Shown in pieces: positions 9,502 through 32,799 of a stretch of 33,364 bases of DNA. A program made the translations under genes and the position numbers. Position 1 is the stretch's first letter, and the number at the start of each line of letters is the position of its first letter. The notes beneath the pieces are model-generated. The model worked only from the letters and a program-made list of their open reading frames with translations. It did no database searches and had not been told where the DNA came from. This DNA is from an uncultured Arthrobacter sp. (lineage in GTDB: Bacteria; Actinomycetota; Actinomycetes; Actinomycetales; Micrococcaceae): the NCBI RefSeq assembly GCF_902805515.1, contig NZ_CADCTE010000066.1:82114-115477 (forward strand), in the 5' to 3' direction.

Positions 9502-9638
9502 GGTCCGCTCCTCGCACCCGGGGTTCCCCCGTCCTCCTGCCCACCGGGCAGGCACAGCAGGGCCGAACACCCATGCTATGCCGGGCTCCCGGGCGCGGGC
9601 AGACCCGAACCCTTTCCTCCGACCCAACTCGGCCGGGT

Positions 9639-9685
9639 CGGTTCCGGCGGTCAGGTTCCGCCGGTCCGGTTCCGCCTGCCTGGTT
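9639..9685. repeat. Three 14-bp tandem units beside the tRNA-fMet terminator
   Basis: CGGTTCCGGCGGTC, AGGTTCCGCCGGTC and CGGTTCCGCCTGCC run head to tail, followed by a partial TGGTT. Six bases later the tRNA terminator stem begins. The array is non-coding and lies upstream of the beta-helix gene. Confidence 0.75.
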
Positions 9686-9690
9686 AATGC

Positions 9691-9726
9691 AGAAGGTCCC
9701 TGTCAGAAACCTGACAGGGACCTTCT
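9691..9726 (-). terminator. Strong hairpin terminator downstream of tRNA-fMet
   Basis: Perfect 16-bp stem (AGAAGGTCCCTGTCAG and its complement) with a 4-nt loop, starting 5 nt beyond the 3' end of the tRNA on the minus strand. The 3' side ends in CCTTCT, then GCATTAACC, only weakly T-rich. The hairpin would work in either direction. Confidence 0.75.
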
Positions 9727-9731
9727 CTTCG

Positions 9732-9805
9732 TTGCGGGGACAGGATTTGAACCTGTGACCTCTGGGTTATGAGCCCAGCGAGCTACCGAACTGCTCCACC
9801 CCGCG
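9732..9805 (-). tRNA. Initiator tRNA-fMet (CAU)
   Basis: The minus strand folds as a full cloverleaf: acceptor 5' CGCGGGG with 3' CCCCGCA, D arm GAGCAGTTCGGTAGCTC, anticodon arm TGGGCTCATAACCCA with anticodon CAT, and T arm ACAGGTTCAAATCCTGT. Two features mark it as the initiator: the unpaired C1-A72 at the top of the acceptor stem, and three consecutive G-C pairs (GGG/CCC) in the anticodon stem. The discriminator is A, and CCA is not encoded (CGA follows). It lies downstream of the UPF0182 gene on the same strand, with 62 bp between them. Confidence 0.97.
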
Positions 9806-9867
9806 GCGCGGTTTCAACTCTACCGGCCGCGGGATGGGGAGGCAAATCGGGGCTGCCGCCCGGCCGC

Positions 9868-12800
9868 CTAGCCGTTGTCCCCTTCGGCCGGTGCCTCGGT
9901 CGCTTCACCCTCGGCCGGCGCTTCACCCTCGGCCGGCGCTTCGCCGTCGGCCGGTGGGACGACCGTGCCGGTGATCTCACCCTCGGCGTCCAGCGCGCGC
10001 TGCAGCGCCGCATTCAGCTTGTCCTGGGCTGCGCCGTAGGCGGCGAAGTCGCCCTCGGCCAGCGCCGTCCGGCCTTCCTCGATCGCCTCGTTCGCCTCAG
10101 CAAGCGCATCGCGGAGCGCCTGCTGGGCGGTCGGGTCCTCGGTCGGAGCCGGCGGCGTCCCGGGATCGGTGGGCGTCTCCCCCGCGTTCTCGGAGTCTCC
10201 GGCGCTTGCGCCGGAATCACCACCGAACACCTGGTCGAGGGCCTCATCGAGGGTCGGGGCGAATCCGACCTTCTCACCGAAGCTCGCCAGCACGCGCTGG
10301 AGCGTCGGATAGGACGACGCACCGGAGGACTGGACATAGACCGGCTGCACATACAGCAGGCCACCGCCAACAGGCAGGCTCAGCAGGTTGCCGTTGATCA
10401 CCTCGGAGGCGCCCTGCCGCAGCAGGTTCAACGCGTTGGAGACCGTCGGGTCGGAGTTGAAGCGGTTCTGCGCCTGCCCGGGGCCGGGCACCGAGGTCGA
10501 GCGCGGCAGCTCGAGCAGCCTCAGCTTGCCGTAGTCCTCCGACTTCACCCCGGCCTCACTGCCGGCGTCGCCGACGGCCGAGAGGAACCCGTAGAGCACG
10601 TTGCGCGCTTCCCCGCCCGGCTCGACGAAGGGAATGAACGGGGTCGTGAGCGAGAAGGCCGCCTCGTCCTGGCCCGGGACCTTCAGGGACAGGTAGAACG
10701 GAGGCTGCTTCACGTCGGCGCTCTCACCCTCGGTGGGGTCGTCGGGAACGCTCCACGCGTCGCTGTTGGCGAAGAACACGTCGACATTCGTGACGTGGTA
10801 GCGGGCCAGCAGCTCGCGCTGCACCTTGAACTGGTCCTCGGGGTAGCGGACGTGCGCCATCAGCTCGGCGGACATCTCGGTGTAGGGCTTGATCGTGGTG
10901 GGGAACACCTTGCTCCAGGCCTTCAGGACCGGGTCCTGGTCGTCCCAGGCGTACAGCTCGACCGAGCCGTCGTAGGCGTCGACGGTCGCCTTCACCGAAT
11001 TGCGGATGTAGTTGACCTGGTCGGCCGGCAGCGGGGTGGACAGGTTGTCCGCCGTCTGGGAGTCGATCGTCGCCGATTCGAGCTCCTGCTGCGTGGAGTA
11101 CGGGAAGAACTCGTTCGTGGTGTACCCGTCGACGATCCACTTGACCCGCCCGTCGACGATGGCCGGGTAGGAGTTGCCGTCAACCGTGAGGTACGGCGCG
11201 AGCTTCTCGACCCGCTCGCGGGGAGTGCGGTCGTAGAGGATCTGCGATTCGCTGTTGACCGCATCCGAGAGCATCAGGTCGGTCGACTGGAACTTGATCG
11301 CGTACACGAGCTTGTTGAAGAAGTTGCCCACGCTCGGGCCGCCCTCACCGGCGAAGGTGTTCTTGGACTCCTCGTCGGAGTCATCGCTCTGCGGGCGGTC
11401 GATCTCGCGTGGGTCGGCGCCTTCAGGTGCGCCGACGATCGAGTACTCGGGGGACGCTTCGCCGAAGTAGATCCGCGGTTCGTAGGTCTCATCGCTGCCG
11501 AGCACCCCCGCGGAGGGGATGCCGGAGAGGGTGAAGGAGGGCTTGCCGTCGGCTTCGACGAACGAGCCGCGGGCGGCGACGACGCCGTAACCGTGGGTGT
11601 AGAGCACGTGCTCGTTGACCCACCCGGCCGGAACGCCCTCGGGGTTGAGCTCGCGGGCAGCGATCACGGTGTCCTGGACCTCGCCGTCGACGGTGTAGCG
11701 GTCAACGTTCAGGGTCGGCGGGAACTGGTAGTACTGGCGGAACTGCTCGAGCTGGCTGAAGGCGTCGGACACGAGGTTCGGGTCGAGCAGGCGGATGTTA
11801 GCCGTCGTCTCCGCGTCCTCGCGCAGCGCGCCGGGCTCGGCGGTGGTCTTGGCGTTGTAGGGAATGGCCTCGACCTGATCGAGGCCATAGGCAACCCGGG
11901 TCAGGTCGATGTTGCGCTGGATGTACTCCCGCTCGAGGGTCAGCTCCGACGGGGTGACCTGGAACCGCTGGACCACCCAGGGGTAGACGCCGCCGGCGAG
12001 GATCGCGGTGATGATGAGCATCGCCGTCCCGATGATGGGCAGCCGCCAGCGGCCGATGACCGCGGCGACGATGAACAGGACCGCCACCAGGATGGCGGCG
12101 ACGGCGAGGATGGCCTTGGTGGGGATGACCGCGTTGACATCGGTGTACAGCGCGCCGGTCCAGCGTCCTCCGGTGTTCTGCAGGGTGGCGTACCGGTCGA
12201 GCCAGTAGTTCACTCCCTGCAGCAGGAGGAACAGGGCCGCGATGACGGCGATCTGGACCCGGGCCGCCTTCGTGGTGAACAGGCCCTTTTCCTCGAGCCG
12301 GATGCCGCCGTAGAGGTAGTGGGTGAGCACCGCGGCGATCGCGCTGATGATCGCGACGCTGGTGAGGAAGCCGATGAGGAAGCCGAAGAACGGCAGGGAG
12401 AACATGTAGAAGGAGAAGTCCAGGCCGAACTCGGGATCGGTCTCGCCGAAGGGCTCCTGGTTGATGAACAGCAGGACCTGCTGCCACTGGGAGGCGGCGG
12501 CCGTTCCGGCGAAGGCGCCCAGAACGATCGGGATGCCGAGCATGAGCAGCTTGCGGATCGGCTCAAGCTGCGCCTGGTACCGGTTGAGGTTGTCCTGCAT
12601 CACGCTGTCCGGCGCGTAGATGGGCCGGCTGCCGTAGGCGATGCGCAGGCTCGCATAGACCGCGCCGGCCATGACGACGAAGGCGGCGACGAACAGGGCG
12701 ATCCGGGAAAGGTTTTCGGTGAGGAACACGCCGAGGTAGCCCAGCTGGTTGTACCAGAGGATGTCGGCGTAGACCTGCGAGAGGTACACGAAGGCGATGA

Positions 12801-12921
12801 CGATGACCGCGACCACGATAACCGTGGGAATCAGGGGGCTGCGTCGTCGGGCGGGTGCTGTCGCTGTGGAACTCGAAGGGCTCGGTCTGCTGCCGAAGGG
12901 CCGGTCTGGTCCGGATGTCAC
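9868..12921 (-). CDS. UPF0182 (COG1615) large multi-pass membrane protein
   Basis: 1017 residues. The start is GTG, preceded by GAGGT; an overlapping ATG is out of frame and hits a stop at once. The N-terminal third holds seven predicted membrane helices (about 31-52, 70-92, 122-146, 172-205, 222-240, 270-295 and 300-322). A large extracytoplasmic region of about 500 residues follows, then an Ala/Glu-rich helical segment and an acidic low-complexity tail with tandem EGEAPA repeats. The family is widespread in Actinobacteria (M. tuberculosis Rv3193c and Rv0064, from memory) and has no proven function. Its neighbour on the same strand is the PDZ/Lon-like protease, an association kept in mycobacteria, so a shared envelope role is plausible but unproved. 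Family assignment is secure. Confidence 0.92.
9902..9955 (-). repeat. 18-bp tandem coding repeat in the UPF0182 tail
   Basis: Three 18-bp units, two identical (GCTTCACCCTCGGCCGGC) and one diverged, encode repeats of the hexapeptide AEGEAP near the C terminus. The tail is acidic and probably disordered, so copy number can vary without harming the fold. Confidence 0.85.
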
Positions 12922-13140
12922 ATTTACCTCATCGTTGGCGGCTGTGGGTCACGACGACGAGCACAAAACGGTCTGCTGCAGGCCCGCGGGCCGGAAACAT
13001 GGCGCAGTCTCTGCCTTCGTGGTTCCATTCTGCCCTGTTAGCGCACGGGCGGTACAACTCAGCGGCCGATTACGCCGCTTCGCCGCGAATCGTTCCGCAA
13101 TCGTGTCCTGGCAGGGGTCCCCGAAAGTCCGGAAATCCGG
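12922..13140. other. 219-bp gap between the PDZ/Lon-like gene and UPF0182
   Basis: Both neighbours are on the minus strand, so this is the 3' end of the protease gene and the leader of UPF0182. A CAGAAT box with a TTGTAC about 19 bp upstream occurs on the minus strand near 13030-13060, a weak promoter candidate. A small CCGGA/TCCGG inverted repeat lies directly behind the protease stop. I see no gene. Confidence 0.4.
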
Positions 13141-14238
13141 TCAGCTGCAGGTGGGCAGGCCGGCGCCGTCCCCGCCCGAACCCAGCTCCTCGACGGCGTC
13201 GACGGCCTCCTCGAGGGTGCCGACCTTGACCACCTTCAGCCCGTCGGGCACGTGGCCGACGACCTCCGCGCAGTTCTCGGCCGGGGCGAGGAAGAACTCC
13301 GCGCCGCTCTCGTGCGCGCCGACCAGTTTCTGCTGGATACCGCCGATCCTCCCGATCGCCCCGGTGGAGTCGATGGTCCCGGTGCCCGAGAAGTGGCGCC
13401 CGCCGGTGAGGTCACCCTCGGTGAGCATGTCGATGATGCCGAGGGCGAACATGGAGCCGGCGGAGGGGCCGCCGACATTGTCGAGGGCGATGGTGACGTC
13501 GAAGGGGAAGTCGAACTCCGAGGTCAGCAGGACCCCCAGCTGGTAATCCCCTTCGGGAGACTGTTTCGGGGTCACCGACACCTCCTCCGCCGATCCGGCG
13601 CGGAGCACTTCGAGGTCGACCCCTGCACCAGCGGCGTCCGTCAGGGCGCTGCGTAGGGTATCGATGTTCTGCACCGGGGCGCCGTCGATGGAGGTGATGG
13701 TGTCGCCGGGCTCGAGGACTCCCGCTGACGCCGATTCGTCGGCGAGGTCCACCACGGTCAGCGATTCCTCGTAGGGGATGTCCAGGTGCCCCAGCGCCGC
13801 CGCGATCGCGGACTCCTGGGAGGAAATCATGGAGACGGTGTTGCGTTCCTCGATGTCCGACCGGGTGGTGCCCGGAGCGTAGACGAGTTCCTCGGGGCGC
13901 ACGGTCTGGTTCGGGTCGATCCATGCCCGGAAGGCATCGAAGATGCTGACATCGCCGTTGGGTCCGCCGCTGACGTACACCGTCGTGAGGTCGAGCTCCC
14001 CCTCGGGGTCGAAGGTCTCCCGGCCGGAGATTTCGATCAGCGGCTGTGAGCGGGCCTCCCCGATGGTGTTGAACGTCGGCCCGGGCGCCTCGAGGACGTA
14101 TGGCGCCGGCAGCAGCACCGCCGCGGCGCCGAGCCCCAGGGCGAGCGCACCGGAGGTCACCATGGCCCGGACGCGGGGGTCACGGGGGCGTTCCGGCTCC
14201 ACGGGTTCGTAGGTTCCGGAGCGGACGGGCTGTGACAC
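13141..14238 (-). CDS. Membrane-anchored PDZ and Lon-type (S16) Ser-Lys protease
   Basis: 365 residues from a GTG that follows AAAAGGAAA at 8 nt; the frame runs 35 codons further upstream without a ribosome site. One membrane helix (about 27-48) is followed by an extracytoplasmic part. A PDZ domain (about 145-225) contains VLEPGDTITSIDGAPVQNIDTL. A Lon-like proteolytic domain follows (about 245-345). The catalytic dyad of family S16 is visible: Ser259 in GGPSAGSMFALGI and Lys304 in GGIQQKLVGAHESG. There is no AAA+ module, so it is not a true Lon. The family (YlbL-like; Rv3194c in M. tuberculosis, from memory) is thought to act on membrane or secreted substrates. It stands divergent to the DUF2342 gene and upstream of UPF0182. 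Confidence 0.92.
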   Translation of the reverse strand: MSQPVRSGTYEPVEPERPRDPRVRAMVTSGALALGLGAAAVLLPAPYVLEAPGPTFNTIGEARSQPLIEISGRETFDPEGELDLTTVYVSGGPNGDVSIFDAFRAWIDPNQTVRPEELVYAPGTTRSDIEERNTVSMISSQESAIAAALGHLDIPYEESLTVVDLADESASAGVLEPGDTITSIDGAPVQNIDTLRSALTDAAGAGVDLEVLRAGSAEEVSVTPKQSPEGDYQLGVLLTSEFDFPFDVTIALDNVGGPSAGSMFALGIIDMLTEGDLTGGRHFSGTGTIDSTGAIGRIGGIQQKLVGAHESGAEFFLAPAENCAEVVGHVPDGLKVVKVGTLEEAVDAVEELGSGGDGAGLPTCS

Positions 14239-14502
14239 GATGGGGTTTCCTTTTCCCTGGCGCGGGCCGTTCGGCCCGGCCAGCGGGGCACGGGAGGACG
14301 AAGGGATCTGCTCTACAACCCTAAACGGTTCGGGTCCCGGCACCGTCCCGGGCCGGGTCTTTGCCCTCAGCGAACTCCCGCAGGGCTTCTAGGACAAGCC
14401 CGCTCCCCTGCCGGTAACGTTGCCTCAACAGCTGCGCGGACCGGTGCCACGGCATGCAGGACCGGCAGGCCTTTTCAGCGACTTCCAGGACTGGTGGTAT
14501 TA

Positions 14503-15993
14503 GTGACCAACCCATCCAACCCCTCCAACGGCGACGACTCCCCCAAGGATCCGCTGTCGGAAATGATCGCGAGGCTGCTCGGCGGTGACGCCGAGGGGTT
14601 CGATCCCACGGAGATCGCCAAGGCGGCCGGCCTGCCGTCGGATCCCCAGGCGATGGCGATGATGATGCAGCAGGTCCAGGCCATGTTCTCGGCCCCCAGC
14701 AGCGGTCCGGTGAACTGGCAGCTCGCGCACGAGCATGCCCGGCGGGTGGCCGCGGCAGACAACGATCCCTCGGTCACCTCCCTGCAGCGCCGGGCCGTCG
14801 ACGAGGCCCTGCGCGTGGCCGAAATGTGGATCGACCCCTTCACCGCGTTCCCGCCCACCGGGCAGCTCGGCCGGGCATGGTCGAAGGCCGAGTGGATCGA
14901 AGCGACGATGGGTACCTGGCGCCGGCTGACCGAGCCGGTGGCGGTGAGTATCTCCAAGGCGCTTTCGGACACGCTCTCGGAGCAGCTGCCCGATGAGATG
15001 AAGTCGATCCTCGGAATGGCAGGCGGCGGTGCCTCGATGTTCCAGAACATGGGCGGGGCGATGTTCGGGATGCAGCTCGGCCAGGCCGTGGGCGCGCTCT
15101 CCAAGGAGGTGCTGGGCTCGACCGACATCGGCGTCCCTCTCGCCGACGGCCAGATGGCCCTGCTTCCCGCCAATGTGCGCTCCTTCGGTGAGGGCCTGGA
15201 CATCCCCGAACAGGAAGTGACGCTCTTCCTTGCGGTCCGGGAGGCCGCCCATGTGCGCCTCTTCACGCAGGTGCCGTGGCTGGCGGGCCACCTCATGGGC
15301 ACCATTGAGCGGTATGCCCGCGGAATCCACATCGACATGACCAAGATCGAGGACGCCGCCCGCGAGATCGACCCCTCGAATCCGGAATCGATGCAGGCGG
15401 CCCTGTCGCAGGGGGTGTTCATGCCCGAGCGGACGGCGGAGCAGGAGGCGGCGCTGTCCCGGCTCGAGACGGTGCTGGCCCTGGTCGAGGGGTGGGTCGA
15501 CGAGATCACCGCCGCGGCCGCGGTCAACCTGCCCTCGGCGGCCGCGCTGCGCGAGACCGTGCGGCGGCGCCGGGCCAGCGGCGGACCCGCCGAGCACGCC
15601 TTCGCCTCCCTGGTCGGACTCGAACTGCGCCCGCGCCGGCTGCGCGAGGCCGCCGCACTGTGGGCCCACCTCACCGAGGAGCGCGGGCTCGAGGGCCGCG
15701 ACGCCATCTGGGAGCACCCGGACCTGCTGCCCACCGCCGAGGACCTCGATGACCCGACGGGCTTCACCGCCCGCCGCCAGCTCATCGAGTCGGCCGGGTC
15801 CGACGTCGACGCCGCGCTGCAGCGCCTGCTCGCGGGCGACTTCGAAAAGCCGGACGTCCCGGAAGACGGGGCCGACGGAGCCGACGGAGCCGACGGCGGG
15901 GACGGCCCGCAGGACGGCGGTTCCGGGGAGGGTCCCGACGGCGGGGACGGGCCCGGGGCTGAAGACCGCGGCCCGGACGGACGCACGCCATAA
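14503..15993 (+). CDS. DUF2342 / Zincin_2 family protein (predicted metalloprotease-like)
   Basis: 496 residues from GTG 14503 (MTNPSNPSNGDDSPKDPLSE). An in-frame GTG at 14494 is the alternative, and the ribosome site is poor for both. The body (about 60-420) is a helical zincin-like domain typical of the actinobacterial family often annotated 'zinc-dependent metalloprotease' or 'F420 biosynthesis-associated'. The expected zinc motif is not canonical: the aligned-looking segment is AVREAAHVRLF with Arg246-Glu247-Ala-Ala-His250, and no HExxH occurs anywhere in the protein. The C terminus (from about 452) is a disordered Gly/Asp-rich acidic tail. It diverges from the PDZ/Lon-like gene, the same arrangement as Rv3194c/Rv3195 in M. 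tuberculosis (from memory). Catalysis is doubtful; the family call is firm. Confidence 0.87.
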   Translation: MTNPSNPSNGDDSPKDPLSEMIARLLGGDAEGFDPTEIAKAAGLPSDPQAMAMMMQQVQAMFSAPSSGPVNWQLAHEHARRVAAADNDPSVTSLQRRAVDEALRVAEMWIDPFTAFPPTGQLGRAWSKAEWIEATMGTWRRLTEPVAVSISKALSDTLSEQLPDEMKSILGMAGGGASMFQNMGGAMFGMQLGQAVGALSKEVLGSTDIGVPLADGQMALLPANVRSFGEGLDIPEQEVTLFLAVREAAHVRLFTQVPWLAGHLMGTIERYARGIHIDMTKIEDAAREIDPSNPESMQAALSQGVFMPERTAEQEAALSRLETVLALVEGWVDEITAAAAVNLPSAAALRETVRRRRASGGPAEHAFASLVGLELRPRRLREAAALWAHLTEERGLEGRDAIWEHPDLLPTAEDLDDPTGFTARRQLIESAGSDVDAALQRLLAGDFEKPDVPEDGADGADGADGGDGPQDGGSGEGPDGGDGPGAEDRGPDGRTP

Positions 15994-16047
15994 CGACCCA
16001 CGCACCCGGTAACGACGGAAGCACCCGTTAACGACAAACGCACCGGT
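15991..16047. repeat. Three 19-bp tandem units starting at the DUF2342 stop codon
   Basis: TAACGACCCACGCACCCGG, TAACGACGGAAGCACCCGT and TAACGACAAACGCACCGGT run without spacers. The first TAA is the stop codon of the DUF2342 gene. The third unit is also the left arm of the hairpin at 16023-16076. Confidence 0.9.
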
Positions 16048-16076
16048 TATTGCCGGTGCGTTTGTCGTTAACGGGT
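16023..16076. terminator. Bidirectional terminator with a 24-bp perfect stem
   Basis: The left arm 16023-16046 and right arm 16053-16076 are exact complements around a 6-nt TTATTG loop. It lies between the convergent DUF2342 and DUF45 peptidase genes and can serve both strands. The left arm coincides with the last unit of the tandem array before it. Confidence 0.85.
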
Positions 16077-16120
16077 CCGCCTGTCGCGGGGTGGTGCGCG
16101 GAGCGCCTGCGGAGCACCCG

Positions 16121-16687
16121 CTAGCGGCCGGCCAGCCCGTGGTCGGCCGCGAAGGCCGCCCCGGCGAGGAAGGCCTTGGCCTTCTCGGTGTCCGGGTAGG
16201 ACTCGAGCAGGCGCCAGAAGACGCGGTTGTGGGACGGCTCGATCAGGTGCGCCATCTCGTGGAGGATGACGTAGTCGACCACCCAGTCGGGCATGCCGCG
16301 GAGCTTGTGCGAGAGCCGGATGGAGCGGTGCACCGGGGTGGCTGAGCCCCAGCGGGAGTTCTGGTTGGTAACCCACCCGATGGTCGCCGGAATGCCCCGG
16401 CCCCCGAGGTAGCGCCCGGCGAGGTCGGCTGCGCGCTGTGCCAGGGCCCGGTCGGCGGCCGCGGGGTCAGAGGCCTGTCCGGCGCTCCGGCCCTGAAGCT
16501 TTAGGACCATCCGGGCCACCCATTCCTTTTCCTGCGCCCGGGTGAAGGTGGCGGGAATGGAGACGATCATCGTCCCGTTGCGCACATCCGCGCTCACAGT
16601 GCGCCGCCGCCGCGCGGACCGGCGAACCTCGACCGGCATCGGCTCTGCCGTGCCAGGGCCGCCGGCGTGCGGGGAGGGCTCAGTCAT
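16121..16687 (-). CDS. YgjP/DUF45-type zinc metallopeptidase (M48-like)
   Basis: 188 residues. The chosen ATG overlaps the uvrD2 stop by 8 nt, pointing to translational coupling; the open frame extends further up inside uvrD2 but has no typical sequence there. The C-terminal half carries the family block: NQNSRWGSATPVHRSIRLSH, then DWVVDYVILHEMAHLIEPSH. The zinc motif is His143-Glu144-x-x-His147, with His153 in SHNRVFW as the probable third ligand. Members of this family, including partners of type I restriction systems and stand-alone YgjP, lack a well-defined physiological substrate. No export signal is present, so it is cytoplasmic. Being third in the nudC-uvrD2 transcript suggests a link to nucleic-acid upkeep, but that is only inference. 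Confidence 0.9.
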   Translation of the reverse strand: MTEPSPHAGGPGTAEPMPVEVRRSARRRRTVSADVRNGTMIVSIPATFTRAQEKEWVARMVLKLQGRSAGQASDPAAADRALAQRAADLAGRYLGGRGIPATIGWVTNQNSRWGSATPVHRSIRLSHKLRGMPDWVVDYVILHEMAHLIEPSHNRVFWRLLESYPDTEKAKAFLAGAAFAADHGLAGR

Positions 16688-19738: not shown

Positions 19739-19744
19739 CCTTCT

Positions 19745-19781
19745 ACGGTACTAACTTGGTCCCCCAAAAGACATTTGGGGG
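19745..19781 (-). promoter_or_regulatory. nudC promoter region with an 8-bp inverted repeat
   Basis: On the minus strand TACCGT (19745-19750) lies 6 nt before the nudC ATG, so the transcript may be leaderless. The inverted repeat CCCCCAAA-AGACA-TTTGGGGG (19761-19781) overlaps where the -35 would be, a natural position for a repressor site. Confidence 0.4.
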
Positions 19782-19851
19782 CCGGGACGGTGGAGGAGAA
19801 GTCGCGGAATTTCAAGGCATTCGGCGACTCGCCGCCGCCGAATTGTCCCGA

Positions 19852-19873
19852 GGTGCACCGATGCACCTACCGT
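19852..19873 (+). promoter_or_regulatory. Phosphotransferase -10 box and adjoining inverted repeat
   Basis: TACCGT (19868-19873) ends 7 nt before GTG 19881, placing initiation at or next to the start codon. Directly upstream is GGTGCA-CCGA-TGCACC (19852-19867), a small dyad between -35 and -10. A TTGTCC at 19843-19848 could be the -35 (19-bp spacing). Confidence 0.4.
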
Positions 19874-19880
19874 TGACAGT

Positions 19881-21446: not shown

Positions 21447-21462
21447 GGGCTCCGCGCCTGGA

Positions 21463-21481
21463 GGCAGCCCGCCTGGCTGCC
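21463..21481 (+). terminator. Small hairpin after the phosphotransferase
   Basis: GGCAGCC-CGCCT-GGCTGCC forms a 7-bp stem and 5-nt loop 16 nt after the stop. There is no T-tract. A repeat array follows at once. Confidence 0.45.
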
Positions 21482-21489
21482 CCGCCCGT

Positions 21490-21586
21490 GGAGTAATGCC
21501 GGGAGTAATGCCGGGAGAAATTGGCCCGGGAGCAATTGGCCTCGAGTAATCAGCCTCGAGTAATCAGCCCGGGGTGATTCGCTCGA
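21490..21586. repeat. Six 11-15 bp tandem units ending in a hairpin between convergent genes
   Basis: Units read GGAGTAATGCC, GGGAGTAATGCC, GGGAGAAATTGGCC, CGGGAGCAATTGGCC and then TCGAGTAATCAGCC twice. The last copy (21556 on) pairs with an imperfect inverted copy, TGATTCGCTCGA, ending at 21586: two 5-bp stems with a small internal loop. The array fills the gap between the phosphotransferase and adnB 3' ends. Confidence 0.8.
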
Positions 21587-21646
21587 CACGATTCGGCCGG
21601 TGAGTGCCCAGGAATGCGCTCCGGCGGCGGCACCCAGCGGGCGGCC

Positions 21647-28100: not shown

Positions 28101-28413
28101 TGCTGAGGCTGCGGTCAAGGCTGCTGGTGAGCTGATCGCGCAGCCGTGCCGCTGCGGCGCGGGTAGGGGCCAGGAGCAGGAGCCCAGAGGGCTCGAGGAG
28201 GCCCGAGTTGATGCGGTGGACCGCCAGGTCGACGAGCAGCCGGGACTTCCCCGCCCCCGGGCCGCCGAGCACGAGCGTCCCGCCGGGGGCCGGCGGGGCG
28301 GTCACCACCGACGCCGCGTCCGCGAAGCCGCGCGGGCGGCCGGGAGAGCCCGGGTCGGTGAGCGCACCGGAGGTTTCGGCGTCGGTCCCGGGGCCGGAAA
28401 GGGTGGTGGTCAT
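25099..28413 (-). CDS. adnA: AdnA-type helicase-nuclease subunit
   Basis: 1104 residues, starting MTTTLSGPGTDAETS. Walker A is GGPGAGKS (50-57), Walker B LILVDDYQEAN (about 261-271). Later motor motifs are degenerate (for example VLTPASAAGRHWPLVIVAGLQEG), as expected of the weaker AdnA motor. The C-terminal nuclease keeps LGTLVHQ (His881), GQIDRLE (Asp971), Asp985-x-Lys987 in VVDLKTG, and Gln1003-x3-Tyr1007. Three cysteines end the protein (1087, 1093, 1096 in GCRLPEICPLC), recalling the Fe-S staple of AddB-type nucleases. The partner cysteine expected at the front of the domain is Ser855 (SPSKVESVLRSPLNWF). The only nearby SD-like stretch, TTAAGGC, sits very close to the ATG. The gene follows ATL by 30 nt and overlaps adnB by 4 nt. 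Confidence 0.92.
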   Translation of the reverse strand: MTTTLSGPGTDAETSGALTDPGSPGRPRGFADAASVVTAPPAPGGTLVLGGPGAGKSRLLVDLAVHRINSGLLEPSGLLLLAPTRAAAARLRDQLTSSLDRSLSTAPARTWGSYAFDLIRRAKIEGRMPHLSRPPRLLSGAEQDLIIKELLAGHGGEGAPSLAWPASLALALGTRGFRQEIRELFDRVSEYGASAEELHAWGLRFDRPDWSAAAALYQEYRDVLDLRMPEAFDPAGILTGARQLLEQDPEFLDEERARLKLILVDDYQEANPAIHALLGLLAQGSEAVITSCPDTAVQGFRGARPELTGRLEELLDAGQGLRTVVLPTSFTLHEHLLGAWRNVASRIATAGAGSAYRQLAGRPSTEQVGRAGEDPAPGTGPTPPDAGSVPAGAAPGVEVHLVDSVFHEQRYLTQRILEAHLYDGRSFDDIAVIVRNGGQVQAVQRFLTAQGLAVNVPAAETAIRDEPAVRPLLDIFSVIVGATGITPELCVSLLTSRIGGASPLELRRLRQVLRREELTEGGGRTSDELLVELLSAPVPAGTLPREARPVQRIARMIEAGRSALASAGDPESVVWALWSASGLSATWSAAAVAEGPSSARADRDLDAVLALFQAAERFVDQMPGAPAGLFLEYLLSQELPMDTLAPRAHRRASVSVLTPASAAGRHWPLVIVAGLQEGVWPNLRLRGELLGSGELRALLDHGASFRQHRDPLSLLQDIRFDELRTFSTAVSRASEQLLCIGVSSPDEQPSQFLDLVDPLPPGVDERARTEVQRPLTLRALVAELRKFVQEPARSPALAAEAVLHLGRMAGVSPPVPGAHPSQWWGLLPLSSDGPVVPPDAAIPVSPSKVESVLRSPLNWFVSAAGGEPATDFARSLGTLVHQIAQDLPHASGGEYVAELQRRWPTLGMKENWEGKLDYRRAETMVRKLAAYVVDARQAGRSLVATEVDFTVDIPVPAGDAERTARLKGQIDRLEIDAAGRLVVVDLKTGKSAPAKAELGQHPQLAAYQAAVGEGGLLDAAGSDTPGGAALVQLGTTAKGASVQEQPPLEPGDTWAKDMIGEAALLMAAAEFESVHDPGRSGFGGSGCRLPEICPLCAEGKQVTE

Positions 28414-28443
28414 GCCTTAAGCCCATCACGAGGTACCGACAAT

Positions 28444-28851
28444 TCAGGCCAGGGTCGGCGCTGTGTCGGTCTCGGACTGCCCGCGCAGCCGCTCCCGGAT
28501 CCGCGTCAGCTCGCCCAGCTCCTCCGGCGAGGGGGTCCACCGGGCGGAGCGGAGATCGACGGCGTAGTCGCCGTCCCGCTCCCGGCCGCCCCGGGCGGCG
28601 CGCAGCGGGGTACCCTCGGCGGCGTAGTGGGGGTGTGCCTCCCCGGCGAGCCCGCGGGGAGGAAATCCACCCGCCCGGATCACGCGCCACCAGGGCACGG
28701 CCGATCCGCTGCGGCTCATCGCCGCTCCGACCTGCCGCGGCCCCCCGCTCTCGAGCAGTTCGGCGATATCCCCATAGGTCAGCACGAACGCCGGCGGGAT
28801 GAGCCGGGCCACGTCGAGCACCGACTCCTGATAGTCGGCAGCGCTCCTCAT
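28444..28851 (-). CDS. Alkyltransferase-like (ATL) protein
   Basis: 135 residues. ATL proteins bind O6-alkylguanine without repairing it and hand the lesion to nucleotide excision repair. The fold matches the MGMT C-terminal domain: VARLIPPAFVLTYGDIAELLE, then GGPRQVGAAMSRSG. The acceptor loop reads V-P-W54-W55-R-V-I, so tryptophan stands where true methyltransferases have the alkyl-accepting Cys (PCHR). There is therefore no transferase chemistry, and annotation as 'methylated-DNA-cysteine methyltransferase' would be wrong. The ATG was chosen because it starts the conserved block and lies 7 nt after a TAGGCT -10 box. It is probably the first gene of an ATL-adnA-adnB transcript; in mycobacteria ATL (Rv3204) is also next to adnAB (from memory). 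Confidence 0.92.
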   Translation of the reverse strand: MRSAADYQESVLDVARLIPPAFVLTYGDIAELLESGGPRQVGAAMSRSGSAVPWWRVIRAGGFPPRGLAGEAHPHYAAEGTPLRAARGGRERDGDYAVDLRSARWTPSPEELGELTRIRERLRGQSETDTAPTLA

Positions 28852-28858
28852 GGCTTCA

Positions 28859-28864
28859 AGCCTA
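28859..28864 (-). promoter_or_regulatory. -10 box of ATL-adnAB, probably leaderless
   Basis: TAGGCT on the minus strand ends exactly 7 nt before the ATL ATG. There is no Shine-Dalgarno sequence in the gap (TGAAGCC). Confidence 0.45.
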
Positions 28865-28902
28865 GCCGGAGCGTCGCCACCGGAAACGTCGGTGGCTGCC
28901 GT

Positions 28903-28908
28903 TAGCGT
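28903..28908 (+). promoter_or_regulatory. -10 box of the exonuclease gene, probably leaderless
   Basis: TAGCGT ends exactly 7 nt before ATG 28916. No ribosome site is present. It is arranged back to back with the ATL promoter within 64 bp. Confidence 0.45.
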
Positions 28909-28915
28909 GGAATCC

Positions 28916-29629
28916 ATGACCAGCTGGCACTCCCTCCCCCGGGCAGGGTTCGACCTCGAAACCACCGGGCGCGATCCGTTGGACGCCCGTATCGTCACGG
29001 CCTCCATCCTGGTTGTGGACGGCGGCGGATCCGTCGTTGAGCAGCATGAGTGGCTTGCGGATCCGGCGGTGGACATCCCGGAGGAAGCCGCGGCGATCCA
29101 CGGCATCAGCACCGCCTACGCGCGGGCCCACGGCCAGCCGGCCGGCACCGTGGTGGCGGAGGCGGCAGCGGTCCTGCGGCGGCTGTTCTCCTCCGGCGTG
29201 CCCGTGCTGGCGTTCAATGCCCGGTACGACTTCACGGTCCTTGCCCGCGAGAGCGCCCGGTACGGGCTCGATGCGCCCGCGCCGTCGCCGGTGCTCGACC
29301 CGTATGTGATGGATAAGCAGGTCGACCGCTACCGGCGCGGCAAGCGGACCCTGACGGCCATGTGCGAGCACTACGGGATCGAGTTCGAAAACGCCCACAC
29401 CTCGGCCGCCGACGTGCTGGCCACCCTGCGCGTCGCCGAAACCCTCGCGGTCCGCTACCCGAGCCTCGCCCGGCCCGCCGAAGACCTGCACGAAGCACAG
29501 GTGGTGTGGGCCGACCGTCAGGCCGCGAGCCTTGAGGAGTACCTGCGGCGTGCCGACCCGGAAGTGGTCGTGGAGCGCGCCTGGCCGGTGATTCCCGACC
29601 CGGCGGAGACCCTCCTCGTCGCCGGCTGA
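28916..29629 (+). CDS. DEDDh 3'-5' exonuclease (DnaQ-like)
   Basis: 237 residues from ATG 28916 (MTSWHSLPRAGFDLETTGRD). All exonuclease motifs are present: ExoI Asp13-x-Glu15 in GFDLETTG, ExoII Asp105 in LAFNARYDFTVL, and ExoIII His161-x4-Asp166 in HTSAADVLATL, making it DEDDh. The size fits a stand-alone enzyme, and there is no UvrC-like or polymerase domain. Proteins of this type are often annotated 'DNA polymerase III subunit epsilon', but nothing here shows replisome binding, and RNA or DNA trimming is equally possible. It is divergent from ATL-adnAB and ahead of metNIQ, from which a terminator separates it. Confidence 0.92.
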   Translation: MTSWHSLPRAGFDLETTGRDPLDARIVTASILVVDGGGSVVEQHEWLADPAVDIPEEAAAIHGISTAYARAHGQPAGTVVAEAAAVLRRLFSSGVPVLAFNARYDFTVLARESARYGLDAPAPSPVLDPYVMDKQVDRYRRGKRTLTAMCEHYGIEFENAHTSAADVLATLRVAETLAVRYPSLARPAEDLHEAQVVWADRQAASLEEYLRRADPEVVVERAWPVIPDPAETLLVAG

Positions 29630-29709
29630 GCAGGCCCCGGGCATCGAACTGCCCCGCGCGGAGTTCCGGGAGCACCCGAAAGAGGTTCCGGAAGGGCCCC
29701 GGAGTGACC

Positions 29710-29747
29710 GGAGCAGGGCCGGCGGAGGACCGGGCTCCAACTTTTTT
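29710..29747 (+). terminator. Terminator between the exonuclease and metN
   Basis: GGAGC pairs with GCTCC, and inside it CCGG pairs with CCGG around a purine-rich loop. CTTTTTT follows three bases later, one of the few T-runs in this GC-rich window. Confidence 0.6.
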
Positions 29748-29760
29748 ACGGTGCATGACG

Positions 29761-29824
29761 CACACCGGTGTGACCCGGCACACACAATTTCGCCGGCCCT
29801 TTGGTCCATGCGACCATCGAAGGG
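29761..29824 (+). promoter_or_regulatory. metN upstream region: 12-bp palindrome and leader hairpin
   Basis: CACACCGGTGTG (29761-29772) is a perfect palindrome, a candidate operator. Downstream CCCTTTGGTC (29797-29806) pairs with GACCA and AAGGG (29812-29824) as a 10-bp stem with a 3-nt bulge and a CATGC loop. I find no match to known SAM riboswitch cores (no GGCAACC-type element). Confidence 0.4.
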
Positions 29825-29881
29825 TTATCCAAGTGCCGCAGCGCCGCGCCGAATCCATTTCCAGCCAAGCCATGAGGATCC

Positions 29882-30889
29882 ATGATTACGGTTACTGAGC
29901 TGCGCAAGTCCTACCGCCAGGGCGGACGCACCATTGACGCCCTCGACGGCGTCAGCCTTGAGGTTCCGCGCGGAACGATTCACGGCGTCATCGGTCATTC
30001 CGGAGCCGGCAAGTCGACACTGGTCCGCTGCCTGACCCTGCTCGACCGCCCCACATCCGGCTCGGTCTCCATCGACGGCCGGGACCTCACCTCCATCAAG
30101 GACTCCGAGGTGCGTTCGGCGCGCCGCCGGATCGGCATGGTCTTCCAGCACGCCAACCTCCTTGACTCCCGCACCGCCGCGGGCAACGTCGCCCTGCCTC
30201 TGGAACTCGTGCGGCTCTCCAAGAGCGAAAAGGACGCGAAGGTCGCCCGCCTGCTCGGCCTCGTCGGCCTTGCGGAGTTCGCTGATGCCTACCCTTCCCA
30301 GCTCTCCGGCGGCCAGCGGCAGCGGGTGGGCATCGCCAGGGCGCTCGCCGCGGATCCGACGGTGCTGCTGTGCGACGAGCCGACCTCGGCCCTCGACCCG
30401 GCCACGACCGATGAGATCCTCGACCTGATCCGTGACCTGGCGGACACCCTCGGCCTGACCGTCCTGATCATCACCCACGAAATGAACGTCGTGAAGCGGA
30501 TCTGCGACTCCGTCTCGCTGCTGGAGAAGGGCCGCGTCGTGGAACAGGGCCCCCTGCGCGAGGTGGCCGGTTCCCTCAACGGAAGGCTGGTCCAGGCGCT
30601 GCTGCCGCTGCCGCCCCACAACCCGTCCGGCACGGGCCCTGTCCTCGACCTGCTCACGGCAGGCGGCTCCGGCTCGGGCCCGGTACTCTCCGAACTCTCC
30701 CGCCGCTTCTCCCTCGACGTGACCCTCCTCGCAGGGAGCGTCGAAACCCTCGCCGGCGAGCAGTTCTCACGGATGCGCGTGGGGCTGGCACCGGCCGCCG
30801 AGGACAACGCTCCGGCCGAACCCCTTGAATTGAACGAGGTGGTATCCCACCTTCGGGCCCGCGGAGTCACGGTGGAGGTGGCGGCATGA
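29882..30889 (+). CDS. metN: Methionine ABC importer ATP-binding protein
   Basis: 335 residues, ATG after TGAGGATCC. MetN drives uptake of D- and L-methionine through MetI with MetQ as the binding lipoprotein. The ATPase domain shows Walker A GHSGAGKST (38-46), signature LSGGQRQR (141-148) and Walker B VLLCDEPTS (161-169, Glu166). The C-terminal part (about 265-335) is the NIL/ACT-like domain that senses internal methionine and causes trans-inhibition; VTLLAGSVETLAGEQFSRMRVGL and VVSHLRARGVTVEV belong to it. The stop overlaps the metI start (ATGA). Regulation is probably both transcriptional (see upstream dyads) and by substrate feedback at the NIL domain. Confidence 0.95.
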   Translation: MITVTELRKSYRQGGRTIDALDGVSLEVPRGTIHGVIGHSGAGKSTLVRCLTLLDRPTSGSVSIDGRDLTSIKDSEVRSARRRIGMVFQHANLLDSRTAAGNVALPLELVRLSKSEKDAKVARLLGLVGLAEFADAYPSQLSGGQRQRVGIARALAADPTVLLCDEPTSALDPATTDEILDLIRDLADTLGLTVLIITHEMNVVKRICDSVSLLEKGRVVEQGPLREVAGSLNGRLVQALLPLPPHNPSGTGPVLDLLTAGGSGSGPVLSELSRRFSLDVTLLAGSVETLAGEQFSRMRVGLAPAAEDNAPAEPLELNEVVSHLRARGVTVEVAA

Positions 30890-31629
30890 ACTTCCTTGAG
30901 CAGATCGCAAACAATCCCGGGCTGACCGAGGCGCTGCCCAAGGAGTTCGCCGCAACGCTTCAGATGATCAGCATCTCCGGTTTCTTCACGGTGCTCATCG
31001 GACTCCCCCTCGGGGTCTTCCTCATCGCGAGTGCGCCGGGCGGGCTCCGCCCGATGCCGGTGACCCACCGCATCCTCTCGGATGTCGTCGTGAACATCAC
31101 GCGCTCGGTCCCGTTCGCGATCCTGATGGTCTCCCTCATTCCGCTGGCACGCCTGATCACCGGCACCTCGATCGGCCCGGTCGCGGCCTCGGTGTCGCTG
31201 AGCATCGGCAGCATCCCGTTCTTCGCCCGGATCGTCGAGACGAGCCTGCGCGACGTCGCCACCGGCAAGATCGATGCGGCCCTGGTGATGGGATCCACCC
31301 GCATGCAGGTGATCCGCAAGGTGCTCCTCCCCGAGGCCCTGCCCGGGCTCATCGCCGGTTTCACCTCCACCCTCGTCGCCCTCGTCGGATACTCGGCGAT
31401 GGCCGGCATCATCGGCGGCGGCGGCCTGGGCCGGCTCGCCTACAACTACGGGCTCCAGCGCTTCGATACCACCGTGATGGTGGTGATCATCGTGATCATC
31501 GTCGCGATCGTCCAGCTGATCCAGCTGGCCGGGGACCGGGCCATGGCCCGGGTGGACCACCGCAACGCCGCGACCGCGGGGGCGGGACGGCGCCGCCGGC
31601 GCGCCCCGGTGCCCGAGGTCTCCGCCTAA
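30886..31629 (+). CDS. metI: Methionine ABC importer permease
   Basis: 247 residues; the ATG overlaps the metN stop by 4 nt, with GGAGGTGG as ribosome site. It is an integral membrane protein with five predicted helices. The cytoplasmic coupling (EAA-type) loop is clear in ALVMGSTRMQVIRKVLLPEALPGLIAG. The C terminus is unusually basic (RRRRRAPVP). It acts as a homodimer with two MetN subunits. Unlike in many bacteria, metQ does not follow directly: a 192-bp gap with a tandem repeat array intervenes. Confidence 0.95.
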   Translation: MNFLEQIANNPGLTEALPKEFAATLQMISISGFFTVLIGLPLGVFLIASAPGGLRPMPVTHRILSDVVVNITRSVPFAILMVSLIPLARLITGTSIGPVAASVSLSIGSIPFFARIVETSLRDVATGKIDAALVMGSTRMQVIRKVLLPEALPGLIAGFTSTLVALVGYSAMAGIIGGGGLGRLAYNYGLQRFDTTVMVVIIVIIVAIVQLIQLAGDRAMARVDHRNAATAGAGRRRRRAPVPEVSA

Positions 31630-31634
31630 CCAGG

Positions 31635-31711
31635 CCTCGTCCACCGAGGTTTCGACTCCACCGGGTTTCGACTCCACCGGGTTTCGACTCCACCGGGTTT
31701 CGACCCACGCA
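31635..31711 (+). repeat. 16-bp tandem array with leading hairpin in the metI-metQ gap
   Basis: A CCTCG-TCCAC-CGAGG hairpin (31635-31649) runs into GGTTTCGACTCCACCG three times exactly (31648-31695) and a diverged copy GGTTTCGACCCACGCA (31696-31711), with GGTTTCCGCA as a trace of a fifth. It is inside the operon, between permease and binding protein. Confidence 0.9.
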
Positions 31712-31821
31712 GGTTTCCGCATGCCGGACCACCATCCGGCCGCTGCGGTACGGCAGCCAGTAGCCGCTAGCTGCCCCGTTTCCGGCCCCTGGGCGCCGGA
31801 CTTCCGAAAGGAAACGCACCC

Positions 31822-32664
31822 GTGCGTAAACTGCTCTCCCTTGCCGCCACCGGCCTTGCAGCCACCCTCACGCTCTCCGCCTGCGGCGCCTCCGCTGCCG
31901 AAAGCGAGACCGTCGAATCCCTGGATCCGGCCAACCCCGTGACCGTGACGGTCGGTGCCAGCCCGCTGCCCCACGCCCGCATCCTCGAATTCGTTGACGA
32001 GAACCTCGCCGAGGAAAGCGGCATCGACCTCGACATCGTTGAGTTCGACGACTACACCACCCCAAACATCGCCCTGAAGGACGGGGACCTCGACGCCAAC
32101 TACTTCCAGCACCTGCCCTACTTCGAGCAGCAGGTGGAGGGCCAGGGCTACGAGTTCTCCCACGGGGAGGGCGTCCACATCGAGCCGTACGCCGCCTTCT
32201 CGGAGAAGCACGACGACGTCTCCGAGCTTCCCGAGGGAGCCCGGATCGCCATCACCAACGACCCCTCCAACCAGGCCCGTGCGCTGACCCTGCTGCAGGA
32301 AGCCGGGCTGCTGACGGGCATCGAGGAGGAGGCCTCGGTCCTCGCGCTCACCGAGGCGCAGAACCCGAACGGCTACGAGTTCGTCGAGAACCAGCCGGAG
32401 CTGCTGCTCAACGACGTCAAGGACCCGTCGGTGGACCTGGCGATCATCAACGGCAACTACATCCTCGACGCCGGGCTCAACACCGACGACGCCCTGATCG
32501 TGGAGTCGACGGAGGAGAACCCGTACGCGAACTTCCTGGCCTGGAACACCTCTTCCGAGGGTGATGCCCGGATCGAGAAGCTCGACGAGCTGCTCCACTC
32601 CGACGAGGTCCGCGCCTTCATCGAGGAGCAGTGGCCCAGCGGAGACGTCACCCCCGCGTTCTAG
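31822..32664 (+). CDS. metQ: Methionine-binding lipoprotein
   Basis: 280 residues from GTG 31822, with AAAGGAAA about 10 nt upstream. The signal peptide ends in a lipobox LSAC with Cys21 as the lipidation site, so the mature protein is anchored to the outer face of the membrane. The NlpA/MetQ family fold is clear: TVTVGASPLPHARILEFV, GIDLDIVEFDDYTTPNIALKDGDLDANYFQHLPYF, then RIAITNDPSNQARALTLLQEAGL and AIINGNYILDAGL. The aromatic/Asn positions that hold the substrate amino acid in MetQ are compatible with methionine. The distance from metI (192 bp) and the intervening repeats would allow a separate promoter or differential mRNA stability, giving more binding protein than permease. Confidence 0.94.
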   Translation: MRKLLSLAATGLAATLTLSACGASAAESETVESLDPANPVTVTVGASPLPHARILEFVDENLAEESGIDLDIVEFDDYTTPNIALKDGDLDANYFQHLPYFEQQVEGQGYEFSHGEGVHIEPYAAFSEKHDDVSELPEGARIAITNDPSNQARALTLLQEAGLLTGIEEEASVLALTEAQNPNGYEFVENQPELLLNDVKDPSVDLAIINGNYILDAGLNTDDALIVESTEENPYANFLAWNTSSEGDARIEKLDELLHSDEVRAFIEEQWPSGDVTPAF

Positions 32665-32677
32665 GCGGTACCTCCCC

Positions 32678-32737
32678 GCTTAGACACCCACTGCTTAAAG
32701 ATCCACCGCTTCAACATCCACTGCTTAAATATCCACT
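32678..32737. repeat. Four 15-bp tandem units behind metQ
   Basis: GCTTAGACACCCACT, GCTTAAAGATCCACC, GCTTCAACATCCACT and GCTTAAATATCCACT run head to tail, starting 14 nt after the metQ stop. The fourth unit is the outer left arm of the hairpin that follows. Confidence 0.9.
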
Positions 32738-32799
32738 GCGCAGTAATGCCGGACCCCGAGGGGTTTTCCGGTACTTACTGCGCAGTGGATGTGTTTAAG
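32724..32799. terminator. Long bidirectional hairpin between metQ and hemL
   Basis: CTTAAA and ATCCACTGCGCAGTAA on the left pair with TTACTGCGCAGTGGAT and TTTAAG on the right, with a 1x3 internal loop. Inside, CCGGA and CCCC pair with GGGG and TCCGG. It ends 6 bp before the hemL stop. Confidence 0.8.

Follow-up and report, generated by a model that had tools for sequence, protein, structure and literature searches.

Five tandem arrays and their hairpins

The window analysed here, a 33,364 nt stretch of a 115-kb contig from an uncultured Arthrobacter sp., carries five short tandem arrays in its intergenic gaps, all of which were detected by TRF close to where the original prediction had placed them. 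Genes were called using a purpose-built codon-usage predictor; on these calls, three convergent gaps in the window exceed 100 bp (127, 200 and 140 bp) and each holds an array, as had been claimed. The arrays and their flanks were folded as RNA and compared with 200 shuffles, giving the z scores listed with the features:

9636..9685, minus strand: array 1, unit of approximately 14 bp in approximately three copies (TRF)
9691..9726, minus strand: stem beside array 1, a perfect 16 bp with a 4-nt loop, directly downstream of tRNA-Met; z -5.9
15976..16044, no strand assigned: array 2, the left-hand 19-bp modules (four on the left) of a dispersed palindromic element
16023..16076, no strand assigned: core of the dispersed element at array 2, a perfect 24-bp stem with a 6-nt AT-rich apex; z -8.3
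21449..21494, plus strand: predicted interrupted stem-loop at the start of array 3, with a chance-like fold energy; z -1.5
21490..21569, no strand assigned: array 3, in a convergent gap, with 11-15-bp units of the GGAGTAATGCCG type and of the GCCTCGAGTAATCA type
31640..31717, plus strand: array 4, 16-bp unit in 4.8 copies with 93% matches, directly past the stop of a permease gene
31717..31748, plus strand: weak interrupted stem-loop on the 3' side of array 4; z -1.0
32676..32739, plus strand: array 5, 15-bp unit in approximately four copies, continuing into the 5' arm of the following stem
32731..32790, plus strand: long stem-loop of array 5, a 16-bp outer stem with an inner stem, flanked by metQ and an aminotransferase gene; z -6.1

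Array 1 separates the tRNA-Met stem from the next gene on the minus strand, and its units lie outside that stem; the core of the array 2 element is followed by a degenerate second right-hand module. Array 3 was resolved by TRF as three sub-arrays. The tRNA alone attained the gathering score in Rfam. Each array had been predicted to be tied to a hairpin: the hairpins are strong at arrays 1, 2 and 5 (z -5.9, -8.3 and -6.1), but the folds at array 3 (z -1.5 and -1.6 on the two strands) and array 4 (z -1.0) are chance-like. The unit itself constitutes a stem arm in two arrays, as anticipated, these being arrays 2 and 5 and no others. A motif common to arrays 3 and 5, GTAATGCCGG, was found at three sites in the 115-kb contig and at none in ten other sampled contigs of the same genome.

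The units had also been described as private to each array. This held for arrays 3, 4 and 5, whose best matches elsewhere in the source genome had E values of 0.39-2.6, but not for array 2, which recurs outside the window at C8 (two places), C159 and C57; the best other match to array 1, of 24 nt with an E value of 0.0074, was treated as chance. The arrays are for the most part lineage-specific, and arrays 1, 3, 4 and 5 differ between sister species. Array 5 has four units in the source genome, three in A. crusticola and one in strain MSA 4-2 (the sister counts being made by eye); its stem-loop is kept in both sister species, and the MSA 4-2 locus is a plain hairpin with its single unit. Array 4 has 4.8 copies against approximately one in each of the two nearest species, and the stem-loop past it is identical in sequence in both sister species, neither of which has the array. 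Units related to those of array 3 are present in MSA 4-2 and absent from A. crusticola, and for array 1 an orthologous placement was achieved in MSA 4-2 only. In some cases the orthologous gaps of close relatives are without the arrays, and in MSA 4-2 arrays flank both sides of another conserved stem. With locus-private units and copy numbers that vary between close relatives, arrays 1, 3, 4 and 5 have, on sequence comparison, the attributes of slippage minisatellites.

Arrays and hairpins in intergenic gaps

Arrays were counted in gaps of 40-500 nt, leaving out shorter and longer ones, in 899 kb of the 3.74 Mb source genome, with the element-targeted stretches L230-L243 and L290-L299 excluded. 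They were found in 13 of the 81 convergent gaps (shuffle expectation 0.3), 11 of the 282 tandem gaps (0.6) and 3 of the 120 divergent gaps (0.6); the counts are thus far above shuffles, and arrays are commoner in convergent than in tandem gaps, these being the two comparisons that had been suggested. One of the 13 convergent arrays falls inside a missed gene, without which the comparison is 12/80 against 11/282 (Fisher p 0.001). Six other Arthrobacter genomes have arrays in 8/67 convergent against 5/203 tandem gaps (p 0.004). Of the nine Arthrobacter samples, two lack arrays in convergent gaps altogether. Controls from outside the genus were small. Two genomes of other families (120 kb) have arrays in 2/5 convergent, 6/22 tandem and 1/18 divergent gaps; at 20 loci from more distant relatives, of which five bear the label Arthrobacter, the corresponding fractions are 0/21, 0/61 and 1/48. 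The bias towards convergent gaps is real in the source genome, and is not general, tandem gaps in the two genomes of other families having arrays as often as the few convergent ones. In the nine-genome rates, and in the hairpin, inverted-copy, composition and stop-triplet counts given below, orthologous gaps of the window contig (from the source genome, G007 and G013) were counted separately and are not fully independent.

Arrays had been expected to be commoner beside 3' hairpins, and this failed. Among convergent gaps of 60-400 nt in nine genomes, hairpins are present in 11 of the 24 with an array and 61 of the 131 without one, with no excess beside convergent-gap arrays at any of eight threshold settings (lowest p 0.48). 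Nor do arrays lie nearer to hairpins than under random placement (within 10 nt in 12/17, 12.7 expected) or overlap hairpin arms more often (8/17, 9.9 expected). When convergent and tandem gaps are pooled the odds ratio is 1.8 (p 0.086), as arrays and hairpins may each simply favour convergent gaps. Equal hairpin frequencies with and without arrays are the outcome that the original prediction had named as marking a coincidence; hence the link looks coincidental, save where array 2 belongs to a dispersed palindromic family.

A dispersed palindromic family at array 2

In the source genome, 21 sites of the array 2 family are listed, seven of which are stronger than any match outside the genus; 18 were read as sequence, the other three being C185, C130 and C58. 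The element was found by blastn in 4/57 genomes, including its own, whilst a covariance model gave 54 matches in the source genome, 56 in A. crusticola and 61 in MSA 4-2 (both strands counted). The family is abundant in the sister species as well, and has orthologous copies in all three. Nineteen cores align gap-free, and the layout consists of tandem 19-bp modules (roughly GCACCCGWWAACGACNNAC) inverted around a 4-6 nt AT-rich apex, usually with two to four modules per side (range one to four in 30 elements). Of the 60 sides, 51 have a second module that passes 12/19, compared with 3% of null windows, although the model already spanned part of this module, 19 of the 30 elements were used in building it and two further copies in the C168 cluster were left out of the test; the second copy at C82 has no passing second module. 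Modules have been both gained and lost, and at L290 the 19-bp unit is present in 6.0 copies at 100% identity, which points to recent tandem growth. Pairing within the core is preserved through changes on both sides (33 cells against 19.3 +/- 3.0 in shuffles, 0/500), bearing in mind that relatedness by itself, with no selection, can raise covariation above the level of shuffles.

The family is concentrated between convergent genes. Where flanks could be determined, 8 of 12 sites in the source genome are convergent compared with 81 of 483 gaps (p 1.6e-4); adding those of three other genomes, with orthologues merged by eye, gives 10 of 16 (p 5e-5, same baseline of 81/483). Sites lacking called flanks (three at C168, two at C82, one at C156 and one in G007) were dropped from these counts. 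The stem was called with a score of 16-27 in 16 of 18 cores, and no T-tract follows either arm, there being just 0-5 T in the next 9 nt; likewise, no T-tailed terminator was found in 15900-16200. Model matches in other genera of the order (15/198 genomes including the source at E <= 1e-6, with one to six matches per genome and a maximum of 62.5 bits) were treated as chance long hairpins. Plasmid, phage and viral-contig collections gave no match, although they may omit records near this genome. Neither a mobilising enzyme nor a target-site duplication was found, and no empty orthologous site was recognised, the gaps of more distant species being too diverged to compare.

Origins of the arrays and comparison with known repeats

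We consider it probable that two distinct phenomena are present: minisatellites produced by slippage in 3' gaps under weak constraint, and one small family of interspersed palindromic repeats. Arrays 1, 3, 4 and 5 would be ordinary locus-private minisatellites with replication slippage as their source, presumably retained because 3' gaps, convergent ones above all, are weakly constrained. Since terminator-like hairpins occupy the same gaps, array and hairpin would frequently meet, and in array 5 the slipped tract would include a stem arm by chance. Array 2 and its 24-bp hairpin would be one copy of a clade-specific dispersed family, probably non-autonomous and perhaps mobilised in trans by some agent, whose hairpin, when transcribed, may form and then protect or end transcripts. 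A single process linking all five arrays to hairpins, as originally proposed, need not be invoked, array 2 being separate and slippage suiting the other four. Of the options considered with it, slippage stands for those four, which are private and variable in copy number, and a dispersed palindromic element stands for array 2 alone and not as a RAYT-linked REP, no RAYT having been found in three genomes.

An unlikely general origin for such arrays, raised in the original prediction, is stalling of replication at a terminator stem, one arm of which is then copied in tandem through slippage or template switching. In its favour, unit and arm coincide in arrays 2 and 5, and in MSA 4-2 the array 5 locus is a one-unit plain hairpin and another conserved stem has an array on either side. 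Compared with shuffled gaps, 12 of 54 arrays also have an inverted copy of the unit in their own gap at p <= 0.05, and nine, from four places, at p <= 0.01. However, five of these nine represent the array 2 gap of three species, and so a dispersed element, and the shuffling destroys hairpins, such that the effect is overstated; furthermore, shuffled sequences fold as well as arrays 3 and 4, hairpins show no excess beside convergent-gap arrays at the eight thresholds, and adjacency and arm overlap match random placement. Given the excess of inverted copies, some link between arm and unit may exist. We similarly doubt an extension of this idea to array 2, in which the family would show the birth and persistence of a dispersed repeat. 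Both arms of a bidirectional stem between convergent genes would have been extended away from the apex in increments of 19 bp to give a multi-register hairpin. This modular palindrome would then have reached some twenty sites within a single Arthrobacter clade, most of them convergent gaps, with no REP-type transposase involved; the private arrays, especially array 5, would represent the same process before dispersal. That array 2 is a classical REP element mobilised by a RAYT seems very improbable: it is dispersed, palindromic and intergenic, but it has long, almost perfect stems flanked by modules, and the Y1 transposase (PF01797) is absent from the source genome (91% complete), A. crusticola and MSA 4-2, the same search being positive in 5/14 controls.

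Selection for the arrays as functional parts of 3' UTRs is also unlikely; in such a role they would help to end transcription or translation between convergent genes, whether by forming multi-register hairpins, by loading Rho or by supplying back-up stops in every frame. The median distance of convergent-gap arrays from a stop codon is 11 nt, and these arrays have a strong compositional asymmetry, A exceeding T in 24 and T exceeding A in 4 of 30 when read in the sense of the nearest gene, against a baseline near zero. Sense stop triplets are present in 17 of the 30 units (11.6 expected), with 51 in sense and 27 in antisense; however, this enrichment is weak and absent from tandem gaps, and tandem stops in all frames were rejected as an explanation. 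A modest excess of C over G across all 48 arrays (28 against 18, p 0.014) stems from tandem gaps, convergent gaps having no such bias (mean 0.03, p 0.67), and a Rho-loading reading was likewise rejected. Pairing is preserved in the dispersed family, but its stems lack a T-tract, and orthologous gaps in close relatives are without arrays. The A-over-T asymmetry and the sense stop excess are not predicted by plain slippage.

Bacterial VNTRs, or minisatellites, have private units and copy numbers that differ between relatives, and arrays 1, 3, 4 and 5 resemble them in both respects; the concentration in convergent gaps and the A-over-T asymmetry are observations of this analysis. REP and BIME sequences associated with RAYTs are dispersed intergenic palindromes. 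The array 2 family shares their short palindromic cores dispersed in intergenic DNA, but has inverted module arrays and no RAYT was found. One survey of REPs includes an Arthrobacter species in its table of predicted palindrome counts, the accompanying passage describing no family (PMC12306157). The pneumococcal SPRITE is a small dispersed hairpin with an 18-bp duplex and a uridine-rich tract, over-represented between convergently transcribed genes and with no mobilising IS identified (PMC3049150). On that account the array 2 family is similar in being a small dispersed hairpin enriched in convergent gaps for which no mobiliser was found, but differs in lacking a T-tract and in having tandem 19-bp modules outside both arms. 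The same source gives BOX elements as boxA-[boxB]n-boxC, dispersed and with a number of tandem modules that varies between strains (PMC3049150). This dispersed, modular layout with variable tandem modules is comparable, except that BOX modules are in tandem between two end modules, whereas those described here are inverted about an apex and each is a stem arm. STAR elements of staphylococci are interspersed intergenic direct repeats with internal spacers; their loci grow and shrink, and they occupy different genomic positions in different species (PMC3532100); the array 2 family shares the interspersed intergenic distribution, changing copy number and differing locations, but has inverted modules around a palindrome. 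In the limited collection of literature searched, no description of inverted tandem arm-modules around an apex was found; this architecture is unusual, and the family that has it occurs in strength in a small clade.

The general claim that arrays are tied to hairpins proves ordinary, and a false lead is avoided. The array 2 family, found as a by-product, offers a tractable case for studying the growth and spread of small palindromic repeats, and their settling in convergent gaps, where no REP-type transposase takes part.

Tandem arrays of the window and their history

TRF recovered all five arrays of the original prediction:

9636..9685, array 1, behind tRNA-Met
15976..16044, array 2, in a convergent gap; together with a 24-bp stem (16023..16076) it forms one copy of a dispersed palindromic element built of 19-bp modules
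21490..21569, array 3, in a convergent gap
31640..31717, array 4, directly 3' of the stop of a permease gene
32676..32739, array 5, in a convergent gap

By the gene calls made in this analysis, arrays 2, 3 and 5 occupy the three convergent gaps longer than 100 bp. The proposal that each array is tied to a hairpin held for three of the five: arrays 1, 2 and 5 have excellent stems, none of 200 shuffles folding as stably, but arrays 3 and 4 fold near chance level against 200 shuffles. The last unit is itself a stem arm in two arrays only. Another repeat, of 15 bp in about seven copies, lies at 3088-3190 within a predicted minus-strand gene; a similar one of 4.5 copies is found in Arthrobacter sp. 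MSA 4-2, and it is probably a low-complexity protein repeat.

At the AdnA-like gene, MSA 4-2 (98% identity) and A. crusticola SLN-3 (97%) come closest among named relatives. The AdnA-like protein also has a counterpart of 75% identity encoded on a contig (L101) whose title names Vibrio cholerae strain 35D, a record that is probably mislabelled or contaminated. Array 5 has four units in the window's own genome, three in A. crusticola and one in MSA 4-2, with the same long stem in all; array 4 has 4.8 copies and a single one in each sister species; and units related to those of array 3 are present in MSA 4-2 (8.2 copies) and absent from A. crusticola. In the Zincin/YgjP gap, most other species shown lack a stem or have a plain, unrelated one; A. 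ruber has its own array next to a stem, and two loci (L079 and L080) have a unit in roughly two copies. In the rest of the own genome, arrays 3, 4 and 5 had no match below E 0.39, and array 1 had one 24-nt match (E 0.0074). This pattern fits slippage in poorly constrained DNA, by which we infer the private arrays (1, 3, 4 and 5) were made.

Around 25 kb before the window, which spans 82114-115477 of contig C66, the same contig has at 56989-57075 a 16-bp array of 5.4 copies, the unit of which contains TTATCCACA, a perfect DnaA box. It holds all four TTATCCACA boxes found in a 512-kb sample of the genome. In MSA 4-2 the gap orthologous to this one contains a 17-bp unit repeated 2.9 times, and in A. 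crusticola a single box; hence this cluster of DnaA boxes seems to expand lineage by lineage.

Arrays and stems in convergent gaps

Gaps carrying a tandem array, by orientation of the flanking genes
Sample; convergent; tandem; divergent
Own genome, 899 kb (TRF score at least 50, gaps of 40-500 nt); 13/81; 11/282; 3/120
Arrays expected from dinucleotide shuffles of own gaps; 0.3; 0.6; 0.6
Nine Arthrobacter samples summed; 26/195; 18/668; 7/289
47 loci from the AdnA-like gene search; 6/105; 4/165; 6/128
20 more distant loci; 0/21; 0/61; 1/48
Two genomes of other families (small samples); 2/5; 6/22; 1/18

With one array in a missed gene removed, the own genome retained 12/80 convergent against 11/282 tandem gaps with an array (p 0.001). 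The six samples other than the own genome, A. crusticola and MSA 4-2 gave 8/67 against 5/203 (p 0.004), two of them (G009 and G010) having no arrays in convergent gaps. With 3' ends as the unit of counting, an array no more than 60 nt from a stop was about five times commoner in convergent (28/390) than in tandem (9/668) gaps. The same trend was seen in the 47 loci, grouped as Arthrobacter with L059 and L060 left out. As the more distant loci have almost no arrays, and the two genomes of other families show no such bias in small samples, the bias is established for this genus and not in general.

Convergent-gap arrays are also strongly A-rich over T in the strand sense of the nearest gene (24 versus 4 of 30; mean 0.35, against 0.04 in array-free flanks; p 5e-6, although counts from the nine genome samples are not fully independent). 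Tandem-gap arrays have no such asymmetry (p 0.35). The C-over-G bias is near zero in convergent gaps and positive across all 48 arrays (p 0.014), and sense stop triplets are somewhat commoner in convergent-gap units (17/30) than expected from permuted units (11.6).

The original prediction suggested a process behind the shared layout of arrays and hairpins. When convergent gaps of 60-400 nt were scored, taking a stem score of at least 11 as presence, stems were as frequent with an array (11/24) as without (61/131), and none of eight stem and loop settings gave an association (every p at least 0.48); nor did tandem gaps alone (3/16 versus 85/507). Pooling both gap types gave an odds ratio of 1.8 (p 0.086), as expected because stems and arrays both favour convergent gaps. 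Where both occurred, placement was as random: of the 17 arrays, 12 were at most 10 nt from the stem (12.7 expected) and eight overlapped an arm by at least 8 nt (9.9 expected). Pointing the other way, an inverted copy of the array was found in its own gap in 12 of 54 cases at p <= 0.05 and nine at p <= 0.01, but in a test whose shuffling removes stems from gaps; these nine represent only four places, with the array-2 gap counted in three species and that of array 5 in two, plus two further places. We conclude that convergent gaps are where stems and arrays both gather, and the proposed link between them was not borne out.

Two individual regions were observed besides. On contig C95 of the own genome (L257 and L258), a similar GC-rich stem recurs in three convergent gaps within 11 kb (at 20.0, 24.6 and 30.7 kb), two of which then have tandem arrays, different from each other. 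At L055:3170-3380 of MSA 4-2 (contig C32, ~133.2 kb) lies a bidirectional stem that three species have conserved; repeat units have expanded on both sides of it in MSA 4-2 and are few in the own genome and A. crusticola.

A dispersed palindromic element

Array 2 departs from the claim that each unit is private, since a whole-genome search found it in C8 (two places), C159 and C57. By blastn it matched several places in A. crusticola and MSA 4-2, one in G044, and nothing in the other 53 of 57 genomes. A covariance model of the family, whose palindrome usually matches both strands, was run over 38 Arthrobacter genomes, giving 54 matches in the own genome, 56 in A. crusticola, 61 in MSA 4-2, 25 in G015, at most 10 in others and none in 11. 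The own genome has at least 21 distinct sites at E below 1e-6. Among the matches listed, scores of at least 63 bits occurred only in the own genome (seven sites), A. crusticola (11), MSA 4-2 (12) and G015 (one), many of these sites belonging to the training set, with three of the seven own sites outside it. Single matches in other genera reached 62.5 bits, which shows that a long perfect stem of any kind gets a fairly good score, so weaker matches should be judged by their modules.

The 19 aligned cores are gap-free across 66 columns, and 86.7% of their cells pair across the apex. Changes on both sides that keep pairing number 33; shuffles gave 19.3 +/- 3.0, and sliding the partner gave no more than 12. 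As the core sequences are related, this is suggestive of maintained pairing rather than proof. Outward from the stem, further copies of the arm sequence follow every 19 bp to the left and right, forming inverted arrays aimed at a 4-6 nt AT-rich apex. Across 30 elements, a second module (at least 12/19 matches) was present on 51/60 sides and a third on 22/60, against 3% of null windows; 11 elements outside the model-building set had the second on 19/22 sides. Left and right modules number 4/2 in the window copy, 2/3 in A. crusticola and 4/2 in MSA 4-2. The own contig C168 has three copies, 233-255 bp apart, forming a cluster with a 118-bp higher-order repeat; here a perfect array of GCGACGAGCGGACCCGGAA (L290:799-912; 19 bp x 6.0, 100%) feeds one palindromic apex. 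Its six identical modules indicate that tandem growth is recent.

Own sites with determinable flanks lie in convergent gaps in 8/12 cases, against 81/483 gaps overall (p 1.6e-4); adding other genomes' sites, with orthologues merged by eye, gives 10/16 (p 5e-5). The family was absent from the plasmid, phage and viral collections searched, and a search of the own, A. crusticola and MSA 4-2 genomes for a RAYT-type Y1 transposase found none. No description of it was found in the literature searched on Arthrobacter repeats and palindromes. The nearest published kinds are the pneumococcal SPRITE and BOX elements, both of which, according to PMC3049150, are over-represented between convergent genes; the same paper suggests that insertions are better tolerated downstream of genes, and notes that BOX length differs from strain to strain. 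Staphylococcal STAR elements behave similarly (PMC3532100). From the SPRITE, BOX and STAR elements, the Arthrobacter family is set apart by its inverted-module layout. Its stems are followed by 0-5 T in nine bases, without a T-tract, and hence are not textbook intrinsic terminators. They may serve to end or protect transcripts.
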